From positions 62,001 to 126,000 of the forward strand of contig NZ_SLXI01000001.1 of the NCBI RefSeq assembly GCF_004345785.1: a stretch of DNA of 64,000 bases, given 5' to 3'. The position numbers and the translations under genes are program-made. The stretch comes from Bisgaardia hudsonensis. GTDB lineage: Bacteria; Pseudomonadota; Gammaproteobacteria; Enterobacterales; Pasteurellaceae. Of this stretch, positions 5,189 through 54,212 are shown piece after piece; within the stretch, counting starts at the first letter, position 1; the number at the start of each line of letters is the position of its first letter. The notes beneath the pieces are model-generated. The model searched no databases. It saw only the letters and a program-made list of their open reading frames with translations, and was not told where the DNA came from.

Positions 5189-5214
5189 AGGTAAAAAACA
5201 ATCGTTGAAAAATA

Positions 5215-5328
5215 AAATACCACAAAAATGATGCCCCTTAAAACCTAAGTCTTAAGGGGCAGAGCATTACGGTCATTCTTTTCAGAAGCCTTATTGTAGC
5301 AACGTTTCTCATTTCGCTGTGCAACAAC
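5215..5328 (-). ncRNA. tracrRNA of the type II-C CRISPR-Cas system
   Basis: Read on the minus strand, 5328-5293 is an anti-repeat matching the complement of the CRISPR repeat at about 30 of 36 positions. The core GCACAGCGAAATGAGAAA is exact, and the mismatches form the bulge expected in crRNA:tracrRNA duplexes. The tail then reads AAGGCTTCTGAAAAG, followed by a hairpin GCCCCTTAA...TTAAGGGGC (about 5259-5232) and a T-rich end near 5225-5215. This layout closely parallels the Neisseria meningitidis tracrRNA, where a GCCCCTTAAA/TTTAAGGGGC hairpin terminates the RNA. It pairs with crRNA repeats and is bound by Cas9. It is divergent from cas9; the 3' end is an estimate. Confidence 0.93.
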
Positions 5329-5334
5329 AGGGAA

Positions 5335-5429: not shown

Positions 5430-8400
5430 ATGGAAAATTCACAATTAAATTATATTTTAGGTTTAGATATAGGTATTGCTTCTGTTGGCTGGGCGGTAGT
5501 TGAAATTGATAAAGAAGAAAATCCCATAGGACTAATTGATGTTGGTGTGAGAACATTTGAAAAAGCTGAAGTTGCTAAAACAGGAGAATCTTTAGCTTTG
5601 GCAAGACGGTTAGCGAGAAGTACTCGTCGTTTAATTCGTCGTCGAGCATTTCGATTGCTAAAGGCAAAACGCTTGTTAAAAAAATATGAAATTCTTACCC
5701 AAGATGATTTTATTTCGTCAAAAGAAATTAAGGGATTACCACATAATCCTTGGGAACTACGTGTTAAAGGACTAACACAAAAGTTATCTCAAAAAGAGTG
5801 GGCTGCCGTTTTATTACATTTATTAAAGCATCGTGGCTATTTATCTCAACGTAAAAATGAAAGTAAAACGGATAATAAGGAGCTTGGTGCTTTGAAAAAA
5901 TGTATCGACCAAAATCATCTACTTTTACAAGATAAAGCATATCGCACCCCTGCGGAGCTTGCACTCAAATATTATTATAAAAAAGATAAGCATATTAGAA
6001 ATCAGCGTGGTGCTTATACACATACTTTTAATCGATTAGATTTATTAGCAGAATTAGAATTATTATTTGAAACTCAACGAAACCTTGGTAATCGCTATAC
6101 ATCAAAAGAATTACAATTAGAATTTTCAGAATTATTAATATGGCAAAAGCCAGCATTATTGGGCGAAGCTATTTTAAAAATGCTAGGAAAATGTACTTTT
6201 GAAACAGCTGAATATAAAGCCGCTAAAAATACTTATAGCGCGGAATATTTTGTATGGTTGACTAAATTAAATAATTTGAGAATTCTTGAAAATGGCTCTG
6301 ATAGAGGAGTTTCAGAAGAAGAAAGAGTCGTATTGCTAAAACAACCCTTTGAAAAAGCAAAACTTACTTATACTCAAGTAAGAAAATTATTAGGGTTATC
6401 AGAAAATGCAATTTTTAAAGGATTAAATTATCGTAAAGAAAATGCAGAAAATACAACGCTAATGGAAATGAAGTCTTGGCATAGTATTCGTAAAGCATTA
6501 GAAAGTAATGGTTTAAAAACAGACTGGGAAGGTTTAAAAACACAACCAGAATTACTTGATAAAATAGGTACCGCTTTTTCTATTTATAAAACGGATAAAG
6601 ATATAAGCCATTATCTACAAAATGATATATCTAAAGATATATTAAATGTTTTATTAGAAAATATTAATTTTGATAAATTTATTCACTTATCCTTAAAAGC
6701 ACTGTATAAAATTTTACCTTTAATGGAAAAAGGTTATCGCTATGATGAAGCTTGTAAGCAAATTTATGGCGATCATTATGGACAAAAAGAACAACAGTTA
6801 GAAAATATTAGAAATCCTGTTGTTTTACGATCTTTATCTCAAGTTAGAAAAGTAGTGAATGCAATTGTGCGTTTATATGGTTCCCCTTGTCGAGTACATA
6901 TTGAAACAGGAAGAGAAGTGGGGAAATCTTATGAAGATCGTTGTGAAATTAAAAAGCGTCAGTTAGATAATCAAGCGGATAAACAAAGAGCGGTCAAAAA
7001 ATTTAAAGAATGGTTCCCTAATTTTGTAGGTGAGCCTAAATCACAAGATATTTTAAAAATGCGTTTATATGAACAGCAGCATGGTAAATGCTTATATTCA
7101 GGTAAGCCTATCAAACATTTAGATCGTTTATTAGAAAAAGGATATGTTGAAATTGATCATGCATTACCATTTTCTCGAACTTGGGATAATAGCTTTAATA
7201 ATAAAGTATTAGTATTAGCTGCAGAAAATCAGAATAAAGGCAATAAAACCCCTTATGAATTTTTTAATGGAAAAGAAAATTCAAAAACTTGGAAAAATTT
7301 TACCGCACTTGTATTAGGAAGTGGTTTTTCTTACGCTAAAAAACAAAAAATTCTAACCCAGAAATTAGATGAAAAAGGATTTAGAGAGCGTAATTTAAAC
7401 GATACAAGATATATAGCCAGTTTTTTGTGTAACTTTATTGAAAATAATACGCACTTAATTGGTCAAGGTAAAAAACGTGTATTTGCTTCAAATGGGAGTA
7501 TCACTGCATTTTTGCGTCATTGTTGGGGAATTCATAAAGAAAGAGTAGCCAATGACCGCCACCATGCGATTGATGCTATTGTGGTTGCTTGTTCTACGGT
7601 TTCTATGCAACAAAAAATTACTAATTTTGTGCGTTACAAAGAGATGAATTTATCTAAGGGGGAAATTATAGATAAAGAAACAGGAGAAATTCAGCAAGTT
7701 TATTTCCCTGAACCTTGGCAATTTTTCAGAAAAGAAGTTGAAATTAGAGTATTTAGTGATAATCCACAAGAGGATCTAGTTATTCAACTACCAGATAGAC
7801 CACAAGCGAATCATCAATTTGTGCAACCTTTATTTGTTTCTCGAGCCCCGACTAGAAAAATGAGCGGTCAAGGACATAAAGACACAGTGAAATCAGCAAA
7901 ACGTATAGCTGAAAATATCAGTGTAATCAGAGTGCCTTTAACTCAATTGAAGTTAGAGGAGCTCGAATGTATGGTAAATAGGGAAAGGGAGCCAGAATTG
8001 CATGAAGCTTTAAAAACTCGTTTAGAAGCATTTAATAATGATCCTGCGAAGGCTTTTGATCCTAAAGAAAGACCTTTTTATAAGAAAGGTGGACAGCAGG
8101 TTAAAGCTGTAAGAGTTGAGAAACTGCAAAAAACAGGGGTATTGGTTTATAATAAAACAGGGGTTGCTGATAATGGAGCAATGGTTAGAGTAGATGTCTT
8201 TATTAAAAAAGGAAAATATTTTTTAGTGCCTGTCTATGCTTGGCAAGTGGCTAAAGGGATATTGCCAAATCGAGCCGTTGTTAAAAATAAAGATGAGTCA
8301 GACTGGGAAATTATGGATGAAACGGCTATATTCCAGTTTTCCATGTATCCTAATGATTTAGTAGAAGTTAAAACAAAGAAAGGAGTAGTGAAGGGGTATT

Positions 8401-8591
8401 ATGTAAGTATGGGAAGAGCTAATGGAACCATTAATATTAGGGAGCATGATTTAGATAAAACAAAGGGGAAAGAGGGGATACACCAAAGTATTGGTGTTAA
8501 ATTAGCTATTTCATTTAAAAAATACCAAATAGATGTATTGGGAAAAAATATATTCTTATGTAAAACTTCAAAATACCGTTCTATTAATTAA
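5430..8591 (+). CDS. cas9: Cas9 endonuclease, type II-C
   Basis: This 1053-residue RNA-guided nuclease cuts DNA matched by crRNA:tracrRNA. RuvC-I is [15 protein letters not shown] with D13. The bridge helix is the Arg-rich stretch around residues 56-85. RuvC-II has E492 in [16 protein letters not shown] carries IDHALPFSR with D576/H577 and [11 protein letters not shown]. RuvC-III has [13 protein letters not shown] with H712/D715. All catalytic residues are present, so the enzyme looks intact. The length and N-terminus resemble Neisseria (1082 aa) and Haemophilus parainfluenzae Cas9 proteins. There is no csn2 or cas4, which defines subtype II-C. The C-terminal ~200 residues should hold the PAM-reading domain. 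The gene contains an uptake sequence at 7302-7310, so it has resided in, or evolved within, this clade. The start follows a GGGG-rich ribosome-binding site. Confidence 0.98.
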
Positions 8592-8646: not shown

Positions 8647-9561
8647 ATGAGTTGGCGAAGTCTAATTATTAGTAAACCTGGAAAGCTATCTCTGAGGCAA
8701 CAACAGTTATTTATTCAGCAAGAAGTGAATGAGTTTACAGTACCACTAGAGGATATAGCTGTCATTGTGGTGGAAAGCAAAGAAATTATTATTACGGCTC
8801 CATTACTTTCAGCTTTAGGAATATATGGAATTACCTTATTAACCTGTGATGAACAATTTCTACCTTGTGGGCAATGGTTGCCATTCTCACAATATTACCG
8901 TCAATTAAAAACCTTGAAATTACAGCTTGAAGCGACAAAGCCGCAAAAGAAACAACTTTGGCAAAAAATTATTCAACAAAAAATTCGTAATCAAGCATTT
9001 GTGTTAGCTCAGTCAAAATATCCGAAAGAATCCCAAAAACTATTAAATATGGCTGATAGAGTGAAATCAGGAGATAAAGATAATTTGGAAGCTCAAGCCG
9101 CTCAAATTTATTTTCAAACTGCTTTTGGAGCTGATTTTAGACGTTGGCAAGAAAACCATATTAATGCACATTTAAACTATGCTTATACCATATTACGTTC
9201 AGCAGTTGCTAGGGCATTAGTACAATATGGTTGGTTGCCTTATTTGGGGTTATTTCATCGAAGTGAACTGAATGCATTTAATTTAGCTGATGATTTTATT
9301 GAACCTTTTCGTCCTTTAGTTGATTTGCAAGTATGGAAATTATGGCAAGAAGGAAAAATTAGTAATGGACTACAACCTAAGACTAAACAATCGCTAGTAG
9401 CATTACTCCATTATCAAATGCAATTTCAAGGACAAACATTTACTGTACTTGCTTCAATTGATCGATGTGTTGGTTCTTTACAAAATGCATTTATTAATAA
9501 AAATGCTAATTTGCTTAAATTACCCGAAATGTTACCACTTAAGGAACATTTATATGAGTGA
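8647..9561 (+). CDS. cas1: Cas1 integrase, type II
   Basis: Cas1 is the catalytic subunit of the Cas1-Cas2 complex that inserts new spacers. The 304-residue protein has the type II Cas1 N-terminus ([21 protein letters not shown]). It has the helical C-terminal domain with the metal-binding Glu in the [14 protein letters not shown] region, the His in [18 protein letters not shown], and the following EPFRPLVD acids. No residues look missing. It has a ribosome-binding site (AAGGGGAAAG) and overlaps cas2 by 8 bp, so the two are translationally coupled. The terminator upstream suggests that cas1-cas2 are expressed at a lower level than cas9 or from their own promoter. Confidence 0.97.
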
Positions 9562-9880
9562 GGCTAAATTTATGCGATTAATCGTTTTTTTCGATCTACC
9601 TGTTACAACCGTCGCTAAGCGCAAAGCTGCAAATCGTTTTCGTCATTTTTTAATTAAAGATGGTTATCAAATGTTACAACTTTCCGTTTATTGCCGAATC
9701 GTTAGAGGAAGAGATGCTTTAGAAAAACATAATAAACGTTTACAAGAGAATTTACCCGAAGAAGGATCTATACGTTGTTTAGAAGTAACAGAAAAACAGT
9801 TTGCAAGTATGCATATTTTACTTGGAAAATTAAAAATTCAAGAAAAGAAAGTCAACACAAATCAAATGCTACTTTTTTAA
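9554..9880 (+). CDS. cas2: Cas2, structural partner of Cas1
   Basis: This is a 108-residue Cas2 with the ferredoxin-like fold signature [11 protein letters not shown] near the N-terminus and the conserved Asp of FFDLP. The [21 protein letters not shown] segment is typical of type II-C Cas2. It dimerises between two Cas1 dimers during spacer acquisition. I chose the ATG at 9554, which overlaps the cas1 stop by 8 bp. An upstream in-frame extension to 9449 would run inside cas1 in another frame and lacks Cas2-like sequence. The gene ends 244 bp before the first CRISPR repeat. Confidence 0.96.
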
Positions 9881-10124: not shown

Positions 10125-12661
10125 ATTGTAGCACAGCGAAATGAGAAAGGGAGCTACAACTATCGTTATCAGTGCCTCCACTGCTACTTTATTGTAGCAC
10201 AGCGAAATGAGAAAGGGAGCTACAACGCAAGAGGCTTGTGTAGAGATTATGAGTAAATTGTAGCACAGCGAAATGAGAAAGGGAGCTACAACAAAGCCTG
10301 ATGACACCGCTCAAATATTACAATTGTAGCACAGCGAAATGAGAAAGGGAGCTACAACAATAAAGCCTAGATATTTACGGTATCTAGGATTGTAGCACAG
10401 CGAAATGAGAAAGGGAGCTACAACTATCTTTGGTTATTGGCATAAAAATTAAGTATTGTAGCACAGCGAAATGAGAAAGGGAGCTACAACTAACAGTTTC
10501 TTCTTGTACTTTTTTCCACGATTGTAGCACAGCGAAATGAGAAAGGGAGCTACAACACGATCAAGAATTGTGAAATTTCTGAATTAATTGTAGCACAGCG
10601 AAATGAGAAAGGGAGCTACAACTCTGAAACATATAAGCGTAATGTTTCTCCAATTGTAGCACAGCGAAATGAGAAAGGGAGCTACAACAGAAGTTGGAAG
10701 CGATGAGATTTGAATTGAATTGTAGCACAGCGAAATGAGAAAGGGAGCTACAACCCACAAGCGATCGCTATGTGCTCTACCATTATTGTAGCACAGCGAA
10801 ATGAGAAAGGGAGCTACAACCATCACATTGCCCTGCAACTAAACGTCTTAATTGTAGCACAGCGAAATGAGAAAGGGAGCTACAACGGTTATATATGCGT
10901 TAAAAATGGGTTAAATATTGTAGCACAGCGAAATGAGAAAGGGAGCTACAACGGCAGGGCTTGGCATATAAATGGCAAGCAAATTGTAGCACAGCGAAAT
11001 GAGAAAGGGAGCTACAACAAGCACCATTTGTTATAACAGTATTATAATATTGTAGCACAGCGAAATGAGAAAGGGAGCTACAACATTTTATGCCCCTTAT
11101 TTTTTAGTTTCTGTATTGTAGCACAGCGAAATGAGAAAGGGAGCTACAACAAATCATCTGGTACAGTTTGACCTGCAATAATTGTAGCACAGCGAAATGA
11201 GAAAGGGAGCTACAACCTATCATTGAGTCATCTTCAATAATCTCTGATTGTAGCACAGCGAAATGAGAAAGGGAGCTACAACAAACTAGCTAACCGCTTT
11301 GAAATATCAGACATTGTAGCACAGCGAAATGAGAAAGGGAGCTACAACCGAGGATTAAATGGTTTGGTAATATAATCAATTGTAGCACAGCGAAATGAGA
11401 AAGGGAGCTACAACTACCATTACCGCCACTGCGCGAACAAGCGCATTGTAGCACAGCGAAATGAGAAAGGGAGCTACAACATAGAAATATAGCAAGATGG
11501 ATAGGATATAATTGTAGCACAGCGAAATGAGAAAGGGAGCTACAACTCAATCTCTGATACTGGGTTTACTACAGGGATTGTAGCACAGCGAAATGAGAAA
11601 GGGAGCTACAACCTTACTAATTTTCGTAGAGATATTGAAACAATTGTAGCACAGCGAAATGAGAAAGGGAGCTACAACTTCTAATATAGCCAATCCTTGT
11701 TCAATATGATTGTAGCACAGCGAAATGAGAAAGGGAGCTACAACCATACACCATTGACAATACCTGTGCCTGTTATTGTAGCACAGCGAAATGAGAAAGG
11801 GAGCTACAACGCGTTTCGTCAAGCTCTTCAGAGAAAAAATATTGTAGCACAGCGAAATGAGAAAGGGAGCTACAACTTTCGGCTTGTAATGGTGATTGAG
11901 ATAACTATTGTAGCACAGCGAAATGAGAAAGGGAGCTACAACTGATGAGTAATTGGGTAGATTGCCTCTAAGATTGTAGCACAGCGAAATGAGAAAGGGA
12001 GCTACAACGTATTATCTGGGTTTGATGTTTCTCGTGTTATTGTAGCACAGCGAAATGAGAAAGGGAGCTACAACTGCAACAAGCACTTGTTGAAATGAAT
12101 ATTGATTGTAGCACAGCGAAATGAGAAAGGGAGCTACAACTCTTGTAAATCATCATTACCAAGACGTCCTATTGTAGCACAGCGAAATGAGAAAGGGAGC
12201 TACAACACCACCAACTGTTTTTTGTAGCTCTTTTAAATTGTAGCACAGCGAAATGAGAAAGGGAGCTACAACCCTGTCATCCACTTGTTTGCAGCAGCTC
12301 TGATTGTAGCACAGCGAAATGAGAAAGGGAGCTACAACGCTCATTTTAATCAAGTAACTAAATTTGAGATTGTAGCACAGCGAAATGAGAAAGGGAGCTA
12401 CAACATTCCCGCTTACGCTAAAAAAACAGGAATGATTGTAGCACAGCGAAATGAGAAAGGGAGCTACAACACGAAGCAATTAAATTAATTTATAAAATAA
12501 ATTGTAGCACAGCGAAATGAGAAAGGGAGCTACAACATACTCATTTAAAATATGCAACCTTGGATAATTGTAGCACAGCGAAATGAGAAAGGGAGCTACA
12601 ACTAGAAACGTTGAATAAGAGATTTTATATTGATTGTAGCACAGCGAAATGAGAAAGGGAG
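10125..12661 (-). CRISPR. Type II-C CRISPR array: 38 intact repeats, 38 spacers, one truncated repeat
   Basis: Repeats of 36 bp start at 10125 and recur at exactly 66-bp intervals through 12567. A 39th copy at 12633 is cut after 29 bases at 12661. All 38 complete repeats appear identical, and every spacer is 30 bp. The anti-repeat places crRNAs on the minus strand, where the repeat begins GTTGTAGCTCCC and ends GCTGTGCTACAAT. That orientation matches the Neisseria type II-C repeat. The repeat's last nine bases, TGCTACAAT, form an extended -10 promoter element, as reported for N. meningitidis, where each repeat starts its own crRNA. Spacer 16 matches the sulfatase gene in this window. Several other spacers have open, phage-like coding potential. 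Open frames running through the array on either strand are artefacts of the repeat. Confidence 0.99.
11151..11180 (-). other. Self-matching CRISPR spacer (spacer 16)
   Basis: The reverse complement of this spacer starts TATTGCAGGTCAAACTG and is identical over all 30 bases to 51991-52020 inside the sulfatase gene. In crRNA orientation the spacer is followed by the repeat, so the PAM would be read just downstream of 52020. Confidence 0.97.
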
Positions 12662-12865
12662 ACTGTCAGATCGAGTTTGACCTTCTACATCTAAATCCTT
12701 CCATTTTTCACCCGTTGGCGAGCGTTCATTATCAAAAGCCTCTTCTGACTCTTCTCGTAAAACATTAGCTATTTTTCGAGAAATATCTGTACCACTCATC
12801 ACTTTTCTTAAGTGCGTGATTTTTCTGATAACGTCTTCATCTTCAAATTTGAATTCTAAAATCAT
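12662..12865 (-). pseudogene. Mu gpG-like phage virion morphogenesis gene, 3' end lost into a CRISPR repeat
   Basis: About 68 residues from the ATG at 12865 resemble the N-terminal half of the phage virion morphogenesis family (Mu gpG; PF05069). The start is MILEFKFEDED, followed by a helical DISRKIANVLREESEEAF segment and the family-typical RSPTGEKWKDL. Homology stops where the sequence runs into the truncated CRISPR repeat (junction about 12661/12662). The remaining ~18 codons read antisense through the repeat and spacer 38. An AAAAGGAAAAG ribosome-binding site is present. In Mu-like phages gpG follows gpF, as here. The gene is a remnant and is not expected to be functional. Confidence 0.75.
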
Positions 12866-49193: not shown

Positions 49194-50867
49194 ATGTTCT
49201 TGACTATTGTGAGTTTTTTAGTTGTAACAGGAATAGTGGCACTTATTTCTTGGTATAGAACTAAAAATGATGATTTAAGTACATCAAAAGGTTATTTTCT
49301 GGCTGGACGTGGATTAAGTGGGCTGGTCATCGGTTGTTCTATGGTGCTAACTTCATTATCTACAGAACAATTAATCGGTGTAAATGCTAACTCTTATGCA
49401 GGAAATTTTTCTATTATTGCTTGGACAGTTCAATCAGTTGTTCCACTTTGTTTTTTAGCACTATATTTATTACCTAAATATATTCGCAATGGATACACTA
49501 CAATACCAGAATTTTTTGAAAGCCGTTTTGATAGACAAACAAGATTGATTATGTCGGGTTTATTCTTAGTTTTCTATTTATTTATCGTTATTCCGACCGC
49601 ACTTTATACGGGTGCTATTGCATTTAATAAAATTTTTAATCTTGAAACTGTCTTTGGATTAACTTATGGACAATCAATTACTTATACGGTGATTGCAATC
49701 GGTATTGTCGGTGCTATTTACGCTATTTTTGGTGGGTTAAAAGCTGTTGCAGTTTCTGACACTTTAAATGCTGTGATTCTTGTTATTGCCGCATTACTTG
49801 TTCCTATCTTTGCTTTAGTCTACTTAGGAAATGGCAGTTTTTCTGAAGGTATCCATATTATTACTACACAACATGTAGAGAAATTTAATGCAATTGGAGG
49901 ACCAAAAGATGCCGTGCCTTGGCCCGCAATGTTTACGGGTATTTTAATTGTAAACTTTTTCTATTGGACAACTAACCAAGCTATTGTACAACGTGCATTA
50001 GGAGCAAGGGATTTAAAAGCTGGGCAAAAAGGTATTTTGATTGCTGCACTTTTCTTACTATTATTACCTATTATTTTAAACTTACCAGGATTGTTAAGTT
50101 TTCATATTATTGGTGAAGGGGAAAGAATGGATGCATCTTATCCTCTATTAGTTAATAGAGTGTTGCCAACAGCATTACAAGGCTTCTTTATTGCTGCATT
50201 ATTTGGTGCTATTTTGAGTACATTTAACTCATTCTTAAATTCGGCAGCAACTATTTATTGTAAAGATTTATTACCATCTATTACTAAGAAACAATTTTCA
50301 GATAAAGAATTAATTACTTATGCTAAGAAAGTCTCTGCTGTAATGGCTGTAATAACTATGATAATTGGACCTTTATTAATGTTTGGTACAGATGGTATTT
50401 TCTTATTAACAAAACGTTTTGCAGGTTTTGTTAATATTCCTATTGTTGCTTTATTTGCTGTTGGTTTGTTTAATAAAACCGTCTCTGGTAGAGCGGCAAA
50501 AACCGCATTGTTGTTACATGTGATTCTTTATTTCTCTATCGTATGGGTATTTAATGTCAAAGTGAACTTTGTGTATGTAATGGCTACACTGTTCGTATTT
50601 GATGTAGTGTTAATGTTATTACTCGGTCTAGTTTGGAAAAGAGAACCTTACGTGGAAAATAAAGAAAATTATGCCAATGTTGATTTAACTAACTGGGAAT
50701 ATGCACCTTTAGTTGTTGCTTCTTTAGTTTTAGGTTTAATAACATTGTACACTTTATTATCACCACTTGGCTTAGCTTCTATAGATGGTAATCCATTGCT
50801 TGTATTAGGAGTCTATGCAATATTACAAATAGTGGTATTGTTTGTATTTGGTAGAAAAAGAATTTAA
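49194..50867 (+). CDS. Sodium:solute symporter (SSS family)
   Basis: A 557-residue membrane transporter with about 13 hydrophobic helices. SSS features include the early [30 protein letters not shown], and [22 protein letters not shown]. It resembles sugar/sialic-acid-type SSS members, but the substrate cannot be read from sequence. It is first in an operon with the sulfatase, the Crp-type regulator and the sulfatase maturase, so import of a sulfated or aminated sugar is likely. A strong ribosome-binding site (TAGGAGGTC) precedes the ATG. One uptake sequence lies near 49597. Confidence 0.9.
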
Positions 50868-50890
50868 TTAGTTATATTGAGGTTGTTGCT

Positions 50891-52339
50891 ATGAATAATG
50901 TGATTTATATTTTATTAGATCAGGTAAGAAAAGATATGATAGGTCCTTATGGTCATAATATTGTAAAGACACCTAATCTTGACCGATTGGCGAGAGATGG
51001 AATTCGATTTAATAATGCATTTACTCCTGCCTCAGTTTGTGGTCCGGCAAGAACCTCTTTATTTACAGGATTAATGCCATCATCTCACGGGATTATTAAA
51101 AATGGTGAAAAAGGTGGAACTGGCGAGATAAGCCCAACGAAACCGAATATTGGTCATATTGAGGGTTATAATACTTATTTACTTGGTAAATGGCATGTAG
51201 GTACAAAATCTGTACCTGAAGATTATGGAATTAAAGGACATAATTTTGATGGATATGGTTATCCTGGAAGTCGAGTATATAAAAATTTAGTATTTGATCA
51301 ACCGCCAACACATTCTAATCGTTATAAAGAATGGTTAGATGAAAAAGGTTATGATATTCCTGAAGTTAGTCGTGCTTATTTTGGGGACAATCCTCATTTA
51401 AGAGTACAAGAACTTTGTGGATTATTATCCGGGACTAAAGAGCAGACTATTGAATATTTTATTATTGATGAGGCAAAAAAATACATTCAAGAATCGCTTT
51501 CTGAAAATAAACCATTTTTTGCTTGGATTAATTTCTGGGGACCTCATACACCTTGTATTGTTCCTGAACCTTATTATTCTATGTATGATCCTAAAGATGT
51601 TGTCTTAGATGAGAGTTTCTTTAAACCATTAGAGGGTAAACCCGGACATTACCGTACAATTTCTAAAATGTGGGGTATGTGGGAAGCAAGTGAAGCACAT
51701 TGGCGTGAAGTGATTACTAAATTCTGGGGATATATTACTTTAATTGATGATGCTATCGGTGAGTTATTTAATTATCTTGAAGCACATAATCTTTATGATA
51801 ATACATTCCTTGTCGCAACAGCGGATCATGGTGATGCGATGGGAGCTCACAGAATGATTGAGAAAGGTGAGTTTATGTTTGAATCGACATACAATATCCC
51901 TTTAATAGTGAAAGATCCAAATTCTGAGCGTGTCAATGAAGTTGATGATAATTTGGTCTATTTACATGATTTGACATCCACTGTTTTTGATATTGCAGGT
52001 CAAACTGTACCAGATGATTTCCAAGGTGAGAGCTTATTGCCATTGACAAGGGAACATAAATCTAATGACCGTAAAGGGATATTAGGACAACTTGCAGGGC
52101 ATTTTGTGTATTTTGAGCAAAGAATGTGGCGAAGAAAAGATTATAAATTAGTATTTAATGCTACTGATTTATGTGAACTTTACGATATTCGCAAAGATCC
52201 AGGTGAATTACATAATTTATTTTATGATGATGATTATCGAGAGATTAAAAAAGAAATGCTAGAAGAAATGCGTCTTGAAATGAAGAGATTAGGTGACCCT
52301 TTGGAAAATTGGGTATATAGAATAATTGATGAAGTTTAA
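50891..52339 (+). CDS. Cysteine-type sulfatase (alkaline phosphatase-like fold)
   Basis: This 482-residue type I sulfatase would hydrolyse a sulfate ester or sulfamate. The active-site signature is C50-G-P-A-R54 followed by TSLFTG; C50 is converted to formylglycine by the maturase encoded two genes downstream. Metal ligands are D10 with Q11 (family usually DD or DQ), and the later TADHGDAMGAH block. There is no signal peptide, so the enzyme should act in the cytoplasm on an imported substrate. Its sequence resembles heparan/glycan sulfatases of commensals, but the exact substrate is unknown. Bases 51991-52020 (about residues 367-377) are identical to a spacer in the CRISPR array of the same chromosome. 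Confidence 0.92.
   Translation: MNNVIYILLDQVRKDMIGPYGHNIVKTPNLDRLARDGIRFNNAFTPASVCGPARTSLFTGLMPSSHGIIKNGEKGGTGEISPTKPNIGHIEGYNTYLLGKWHVGTKSVPEDYGIKGHNFDGYGYPGSRVYKNLVFDQPPTHSNRYKEWLDEKGYDIPEVSRAYFGDNPHLRVQELCGLLSGTKEQTIEYFIIDEAKKYIQESLSENKPFFAWINFWGPHTPCIVPEPYYSMYDPKDVVLDESFFKPLEGKPGHYRTISKMWGMWEASEAHWREVITKFWGYITLIDDAIGELFNYLEAHNLYDNTFLVATADHGDAMGAHRMIEKGEFMFESTYNIPLIVKDPNSERVNEVDDNLVYLHDLTSTVFDIAGQTVPDDFQGESLLPLTREHKSNDRKGILGQLAGHFVYFEQRMWRRKDYKLVFNATDLCELYDIRKDPGELHNLFYDDDYREIKKEMLEEMRLEMKRLGDPLENWVYRIIDEV
51991..52020 (+). other. Protospacer matched by CRISPR spacer 16
   Basis: All 30 bases are identical to the guide portion predicted from spacer 16. The eight bases 3' of it are CCAAGGTG; a Neisseria-type PAM would be N4GATT. 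G at +5 and T at +7 match, +6 and +8 do not. Confidence 0.97.
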
Positions 52340-52361
52340 TTTAGGATCGATTTACGTTATT

Positions 52362-52402
52362 ATTAAATGCCTCTTCTTCCGAGTTTGAGGCATTTAATTT
52401 AT
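52362..52402 (+). terminator. Hairpin between sulfatase and regulator genes
   Basis: TAAATGCCTC (52364-52373) pairs with GAGGCATTTA (52387-52396) followed by ATTT. It may end the symporter-sulfatase transcript or attenuate it. Confidence 0.65.
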
Positions 52403-52443
52403 TTGAGATAATATTTTAATAAACGTATATAAAAAGGCATATT

Positions 52444-53025
52444 ATGGAAAGTAATCCAATTCTTCCTTCTACATTAATACATTGCAAATTAAAACATTTT
52501 CACACTTTTTTTAAAGGTATGACGGTGTATAAACAAGGCGAAATTGCACAGGAATTTTATTTTATTAAAGAAGGTTTAATTGGCTTGTATCACACATTGG
52601 ATAATGGTAAAGAAAGTTTAGTTCGCTTGTATCAGAAAGGTGATTATTTTGGGTATCGGACATTATTCGGAGATACCATGTACCATTGTAGTGCAAAAGT
52701 TTTAGTGGAGGCAGAAATTATCTGTATTAAGCCTGAAGATACGCAGCTCTTTTTATTACAAAATCCAACGATAAGCCGTTTTTTATTACAAATTATTGCA
52801 AGTGAATTACGAGATGCCGAGCAACGTTTAGCTAAAAGTGCCTATATGAAAACGGTTGATAGGATCCTTGATAGTGTACATTTTCTTTCTGAGCATTTTC
52901 CTTATTATAATTGGACTCATCGTGAAATAGCGGAATATTCTGGCTGTGAAACGGAAACAGCTATTCGGATATCTAAAGAATTAAAAAAGAATGGGTTGTT
53001 GTTACCTTCTCATAAAGATAAGTAA
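52444..53025 (+). CDS. Crp/Fnr-family transcriptional regulator
   Basis: A 193-residue regulator with an N-terminal cyclic-nucleotide-type beta-roll (VYKQGEIAQEFYFIKEGLIGLY... KGDYFG) and a C-terminal winged helix-turn-helix (THREIAEYSGCETETAIRISKELKKNG). It lacks the N-terminal cysteine cluster of FNR. The effector is unknown. Its place between the sulfatase and the maturase suggests local control of the cluster. The start (ATG 52444) has a weak upstream site. Confidence 0.88.
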   Translation: MESNPILPSTLIHCKLKHFHTFFKGMTVYKQGEIAQEFYFIKEGLIGLYHTLDNGKESLVRLYQKGDYFGYRTLFGDTMYHCSAKVLVEAEIICIKPEDTQLFLLQNPTISRFLLQIIASELRDAEQRLAKSAYMKTVDRILDSVHFLSEHFPYYNWTHREIAEYSGCETETAIRISKELKKNGLLLPSHKDK

Positions 53026-53069
53026 TTTTTTTATTTAGCTTTTTAATTTTCTTTATAAGGATTGTGATA

Positions 53070-54212
53070 ATGCCAACAAGTAAAGCTTATTTTCATTTAA
53101 TGGCAAAACCAAGTAGTTATCATTGTAATATTAAATGTGAGTATTGTTTTTATTTAGAAAAAGAGCATATTTTTCAACATAAAACGGAATTTATGTCTGA
53201 TGATGTCTTAAAGCATTATATTCAAAATTATATTGATTCTCATGCGGGTGAGCAAATTGATTTTGCTTGGCAAGGAGGAGAACCAACATTACTTGGCATT
53301 GATTTTTTTAAACAGGCAGTTAAGTATCAAAAACAATTTTCTAAAGGTAAAAAAATTACCAATTCTTTTCAAACTAATGGCATTGCAATTAATCGGCAGT
53401 GGGCTGAGTTTTTTAAGGTAAATCATTTTTTAATTGGTATTTCTATTGATGGTTTATCTGCGATCCACAATAAATATCGTATTTCAGTAAATGGTAAACC
53501 CACTTTTGAGCGAGTAAAAAGTGCGGTCGAATTATTAAACGAATTTCAAGTTGATTTTAATACATTAACTGTTGTTAATGACCAAAATTGGAATAAGGGA
53601 AAAGAAACCTATTTAGCTTTGAAAGAATTGGGTTCAACATTTATGCAGTTTATTCCAGTTGTTGAAATAAACAGAAGAGATGAACATTATTCTGTTACTG
53701 ATTTTTCAGTAAAATCTGATGGTTATGGTCGATTTTTAGTTGATGTTTTTAATGAATGGATAAAGCAAGATATTGGAAAAATTTTTGTTATTGAATTTGA
53801 TAATTTGTTAGGGCAATGGCTTGGCTATCCTTCTAATAACTGCGTTCACCGTGAAACTTGTGGGAGAACAATGGTTGTTGAGTCAAATGGAGATGTGTAC
53901 TCCTGTGATCATTATGTTTATCCTAAGCATTATATTGGTAATTTAACGCAACAGTCTTTATCTAATATGGTAAATTCTAAGCAACAAATTAGTTTTGGTA
54001 TGGAGAAAAAAACAAAATTATCTCCTTTATGTAAATCATGTGAGTTAAGACCAATTTGTCATGGTGGTTGTCCTAAACACCGGATAGTTAAGTTACCGAA
54101 TACGCCTATTCTCCACAACTATTTATGTCCATCATACCAATTATTTTTTAGAGAAAGTGCAGTTAAAATGCGTGAAATAGCACAGAGAATTAGGCAAGGG
54201 AATAGCCTATGA
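53070..54212 (+). CDS. Anaerobic sulfatase-maturating enzyme (radical SAM, anSME/AslB type)
   Basis: The 380-residue protein oxidises the active-site cysteine of sulfatases to formylglycine, independently of oxygen. It has the radical SAM motif CNIKCEYCFY near residue 20. The C-terminal SPASM region has the auxiliary cluster cysteines CVHRETCGRT, CDHYVYPKHYIGNL, CKSCELRPICHGGCPKHR. I chose the ATG at 53070, placed about ten bases after ATAAGG, rather than the GTG at 53064. One uptake sequence lies near 53519. Its likely substrate is the sulfatase at 50891. Confidence 0.93.
   Translation: MPTSKAYFHLMAKPSSYHCNIKCEYCFYLEKEHIFQHKTEFMSDDVLKHYIQNYIDSHAGEQIDFAWQGGEPTLLGIDFFKQAVKYQKQFSKGKKITNSFQTNGIAINRQWAEFFKVNHFLIGISIDGLSAIHNKYRISVNGKPTFERVKSAVELLNEFQVDFNTLTVVNDQNWNKGKETYLALKELGSTFMQFIPVVEINRRDEHYSVTDFSVKSDGYGRFLVDVFNEWIKQDIGKIFVIEFDNLLGQWLGYPSNNCVHRETCGRTMVVESNGDVYSCDHYVYPKHYIGNLTQQSLSNMVNSKQQISFGMEKKTKLSPLCKSCELRPICHGGCPKHRIVKLPNTPILHNYLCPSYQLFFRESAVKMREIAQRIRQGNSL

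Follow-up and report, generated by a model that had tools for sequence, protein, structure and literature searches.

Positions 51991 to 52020 of the window, the whole 64,000-nucleotide stretch of Bisgaardia hudsonensis DNA analysed here, lie in a sulfatase gene and are identical over 30/30 bases, as reverse complement, to spacer 16 of a CRISPR array in the same window, where the spacer has identical intact repeats on both sides. Our analysis suggests, with a probability of about 0.68, that this spacer is one of five harmless chromosomal self-spacers without a PAM and that it probably derives from the cell's own DNA. Most likely Cas1-Cas2 captures fragments of own DNA, or of identical DNA from sister cells, without effective PAM selection, and Cas9 would need approximately N4GT 3' of the protospacer. 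The sulfatase site (CCAAGG) and the four other chromosomal sites lack this motif, so that the crRNA would direct no cleavage there and the spacers would stay in the array as harmless passengers. Only chromosomal self-spacers without a PAM would be seen because those with one would probably have killed their bearer. That the self-spacers were acquired in this way and do no harm is what we infer; absence of a PAM has been described as one cause of tolerance of such spacers (PMC6990116).

The self-match that the original prediction reported is real. By arithmetic, a chance 30/30 match in this 2.1-Mb genome is expected at about 4e-12 per spacer. The prediction had also raised the possibility that array and sulfatase gene come from different strains, an assembly artefact that is unlikely because both are carried on one 580-kb contig of a complete (100%) and clean (0.07% contaminated) assembly. 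According to Rfam, the repeats run on the minus strand, so the sulfatase guide has the sense of the mRNA and its PAM side runs from 52021 onward, where the flank CCAAGGTG reads as had been claimed. The sulfatase gene is grouped with genes for a sodium:solute symporter, a Crp-like regulator and a radical-SAM/SPASM protein (49194-54212), the last of which could be a candidate sulfatase maturase.

With cas9, cas1 and cas2, without csn2 or cas4, and with a tracrRNA that has an anti-repeat, the locus fits type II-C, and the ORF list holds no additional cas gene in the interval between cas2 and the array. A 39th repeat of the array stops after 29 bases and runs into unrelated sequence (12633-12700). 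The catalytic residues of Cas9 are present (D13, E492, D576, H577, H712 and D715, with the HNH Asn taken from the ENQNKGN motif at 600), the anti-repeat forms 21/24 pairs with the repeat, and the tracrRNA region has a stable fold (z-score -4.0), in agreement with the earlier description of an intact nuclease and tracrRNA.

When all spacers were compared with the whole genome, 30/30 matches outside the array were found for spacers 1, 3, 16, 19, 24, 28 and 30, that is, for 7/38 (18%), five of them in ordinary chromosomal genes and two on a resident plasmid. The matches of the six besides spacer 16 fall outside the window (Table 1). The self-spacers occur along the array from one end to the other, which suggests that they have been tolerated for long. 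Three of the five chromosomal self-sites (C1:113991, 145621 and 209653) are on the contig that carries the array, no more than about 140 kb from it, which may be chance. No extended pairing was found between the crRNA repeat and the flanks of the self-sites.

Table 1. Positions in the window of the CRISPR-Cas locus, the spacers discussed and the sulfatase target. Phage gene names come from the annotation where a record had one and otherwise from sequence resemblance.
Feature	Positions	Strand	Remarks
tracrRNA region	5195..5330 (boundaries approximate)	-	anti-repeat 5293-5316
cas9, type II-C	5430..8591	+	1053 aa; TIGR01865
cas1	8647..9561	+	TIGR03639
cas2	9572..9880 (domain part of ORF 9449-9880)	+	TIGR01573
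CRISPR array	10125..12661	-	38 identical 36-bp repeats, 38 spacers of 30 nt; guides read on minus strand
Spacer 1, self (plasmid C15, EamA-family gene)	10161..10190	-	flank GCATTTAA
Spacer 3, self (plasmid C15, relaxase gene)	10293..10322	-	flank TTAAGTAA, carries the inferred N4GT
Spacer 10, P2-like gpA gene	10755..10784	-	GT at +5/+6 in 16/16 alleles
Spacer 16, self (sulfatase)	11151..11180	-	
Spacer 19, self (arcA)	11349..11378	-	flank AGAATTAA
Spacer 20, Mu-like tail gene	11415..11444	-	GT in 10/11 alleles
Spacer 24, self (dinB)	11679..11708	-	flank AAATTATA
Spacer 28, self (L-2,4-diaminobutyrate decarboxylase-like gene; name approximate, score under NCBIfam cut-off)	11943..11972	-	flank ACACAATA
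Spacer 30, self (proC)	12075..12104	-	flank TAGCCTCC
Spacer 31, Mu-like portal gene	12141..12170	-	homologue flanks AAAAGTN
Spacer 33, Mu-like transposase gene	12273..12302	-	homologue flanks NGGNGTN
Spacer 37, P2-like capsid gene	12537..12566	-	GT in 9/12, AT in 3/12 alleles
Sulfatase gene	50891..52339	+	482 aa; Pfam Sulfatase and SGSH_C
Self-protospacer of spacer 16	51991..52020	+	inside sulfatase gene; genome C1:113991-114020; guide has mRNA sense
PAM-side flank CCAAGGTG	52021..52028	+	+5/+6 is GG rather than GT

Whether these sites could be cut depends on the PAM. Annotated phages and plasmids gave almost no spacer matches, exact phage targets were not found among them, and prophages of relatives were therefore used for the estimate. 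Homologues of foreign targets were collected from prophages of the family and from viral contigs (about 1.3 Mb of DNA), in which shuffled spacers gave 0.33 matches per set at <=7 mismatches. Exact and near-exact seed scans of viral contigs with spacers 33, 20 and 37 found nothing, and a search for related loci with gpA gained little. Besides the phage genes listed in Table 1, spacer 13 has terminase homologues, spacer 21 tape measure homologues and spacer 6 homologues in a pNAD1-like filamentous element. The adjacent spacers 10 and 11 match one P2-like gpA gene (10755-10850). The P2-like and Mu-like query fragments have no match in the genome itself.

GT at +5/+6 is fixed in all homologues of 5/9 foreign spacers (10, 20, 31, 33 and 37, counting only Mu-like homologues for spacer 31), and other combinations of dinucleotide and position are fixed in at most three of the nine. 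In the averaged base composition, G at +5 carries 1.0 bit, A at +1 0.56, T at +6 0.50 and position +7 0.49. These homologues are not exact targets and carry 2-8 mismatches or more; in three of the five cases the GT stems from Val codons, and one of the five is a single allele in the narrower set. A wider, protein-guided set, the source of the allele counts in Table 1, had GT in 5/20 cases for spacer 13 and in none for spacers 11 and 21, and spacers 6, 11 and 21 are misfits. From five independent Mu-like and P2-like protospacers, our best estimate of the PAM is N4GT.

The PAM-reading residues of Nme1Cas9 are Q981, H1024, T1027 and N1029, and the residue at position 1024 (D, H or N) has been used to divide 29 orthologues into groups (PMC9433092). 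Here the corresponding residues are K952, G995, N998 and T1000 (segment 8283-8431), so all four are replaced, and the set differs from that of HpaCas9 as well. Neither Gly at the H1024 position nor Lys at the Q981 position occurs in any of 31 other aligned Cas9s, which are Nme1, the one at the Conservatibacter locus L038 and those of 29 further loci that a family search had found; for one locus the alignment stops short of the last two columns. Over their shared part, the Nme1 reference segment and the PDB alignment agree; a Cas9 scan of the genome contigs yielded one relative only. With the contact residues changed, N4GATT cannot be assumed. It and N4GNTT were considered as the PAM and rejected on these residues and on the GT at +5/+6 of the phage-target flanks, and the N4GATT-like PAM on which the original prediction had relied does not hold up.

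Judged against N4GT, six of the seven self-sites appear to have no PAM, and these six include every chromosomal one. The bases at +5/+6 are GG (spacer 16), TT (19), TA (24), AA (28) and CT (30) on the chromosome, and TT (spacer 1) and GT (spacer 3) on the plasmid; the sulfatase site has the G at +5 but G in place of T at +6. A full match with the inferred PAM thus occurs at 0/5 chromosomal sites. This absence is what chance predicts (P 0.78), and the difference from the foreign spacers, 5/9 with GT, is not significant (Fisher P 0.086). The chromosomal self-spacers therefore resemble a sample of the genome taken without regard to the PAM, from which PAM-bearing ones may have been lost through the death of their cells.

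The plasmid is where this reading is strained. Contig C15 (1-4720) has 4720 bp with a 95-bp terminal overlap, which indicates a circular plasmid of about 4625 bp. It is mobilisable, with a mobilisation region that resembles those of small Pasteurellaceae plasmids, and it encodes an EamA-family transporter, an oxidoreductase-like ORF and a relaxase. The protospacers of spacers 1 and 3 are both on C15; these two spacers sit at the cas-side end of the array and, if its truncated repeat is the oldest end, are probably the latest additions. If N4GT is right, spacer 3 has both a full match and a PAM on this resident replicon (TTAAGTAA), and the plasmid nevertheless persists. Its survival might reflect low expression, an unknown inhibitor or a high copy number that outpaces cleavage; recent acquisition, or a PAM requirement not visible in the homologues, is also possible.

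The persistence of C15 is an argument for the alternative that fares best, which we still regard as unlikely: that the CRISPR-Cas9 system is silent or inhibited, through low expression or an unknown anti-CRISPR, so that nothing is cut and self-spacers accumulate. The chromosomal share of spacers is higher in a type II-A system when its Cas9 is cleavage-dead (Wei et al. 2015, as described in PMC6990116). The intact catalytic residues, cas1, cas2, tracrRNA and 38 identical repeats argue against a silent system, as does the lack of any AcrIIC1-5 match in the genome, a search that covers known families only; the 0/5 chromosomal self-sites with a PAM and the 31/38 non-self spacers also speak against it, and neither is decisive. 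The AcrIIC queries were compared with the PDB chains that bear these names. Two AcrIIC4-like matches are present in another genome of the family (G078 C2:18103-18432 and C2:2213372-2213701), with 81% identity over the stretch and internal stop codons, so the search is able to detect at least that family. The small ORFs of C15, inspected by eye only, include no evident anti-CRISPR. We also speculate, with greater doubt, that the rebuilt PAM-reading site gives a new two-base PAM, N4GT, and is coupled to poor PAM selection at acquisition; the array would then steadily record its own genome, and an unknown inhibitor or switch would spare the PAM-bearing plasmid.

The alleles of relatives bear on the readings in which the chromosomal matches have a history of PAMs. 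At the orthologous sites of other species GT was found in 0/49 cases (sulfatase 12, proC 12, dinB 9, decarboxylase 9 and arcA 7). The sulfatase position is GG, in an invariant glycine codon, in all 12 relatives. The state without a PAM therefore looks ancestral, and a PAM was probably never there, which argues both against its loss by mutation and against PAM-bearing donors policed by the array. Such policing had been proposed for uptake of the sulfatase cluster: spacers would have been taken from other strains or species by transformation, from donor alleles with a PAM. CRISPR can limit transformation in Neisseria and pneumococcus (as cited in PMC7642515), and the Haemophilus-type uptake motif AAGTGCGGT occurs 23 times in the window (the ACAAGCGGT-type motif has 0 copies in the whole window). 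No relative's sulfatase allele, on comparison of the PAM position, has GT; spacer 19 is fully matched by no other species' arcA (the best has one mismatch); and four of the five genes matched, those of the other chromosomal self-spacers, are core-type and not part of an exchangeable cluster. On these alleles of other species, we consider policing very improbable.

The original prediction was right in that the sulfatase site is probably spared for want of a PAM, with no T at +6, but the word escape does not fit GG in 12/12 relatives. That the host lived through an earlier PAM at these sites by mutating it merits very little credence: four of the six non-PAM sites are one base away from GT, but one match in two bases is common by chance, and the relatives' sites also lack GT. 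Regulation of the matched genes by pairing of crRNAs with mRNAs is equally hard to credit, since, even if Cas9s of the same type can cleave RNA without a PAM (as cited in PMC6990116) and three guides, 30 (proC) and the plasmid-matching 1 and 3, are antisense to the genes they match, guides 16, 19, 24 and 28 share the mRNA sense and cannot pair with it, and all sites are internal to coding regions of no common function.

If the self-spacers are, as we favour, mostly PAM-less captures of own DNA, an apparent lethal paradox becomes testable, with PAM-less chromosomal matches and a putatively PAM-bearing plasmid match in one array and one cell. Such an array lets PAM selection at acquisition in type II-C systems be separated from interference. 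Confirmation of N4GT would also yield a practical find: a compact Cas9 whose PAM has two bases and whose PAM-reading site is unusual.

Self-spacers without a PAM are already known, and a self fraction of 18% is high. Self-targeting was reported for 0.4% of spacers and 18% of genomes (Stern et al. 2010, as reviewed in PMC6990116). The cases described in that review are likewise perfect matches to ordinary chromosomal genes, with intact cas genes and tolerance through a missing PAM, but their 0.4% of spacers, the baseline from that one survey, compares with 7/38 (18%) here. In the same bacterial family, a spacer of Aggregatibacter actinomycetemcomitans matches a host metabolic gene, glgP (Jorth and Whiteley 2012, as cited in PMC3983513), whereas several genes and a plasmid are matched here. 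The system resembles those of Nme1Cas9 and HpaCas9 (PMC9433092, PMC6282205) in Cas9 clade, repeat family (Rfam CRISPR-DR34) and cas9-cas1-cas2 locus type, and differs from them in its PAM, N4GATT and N4GNTT in those systems versus the N4GT estimated here.
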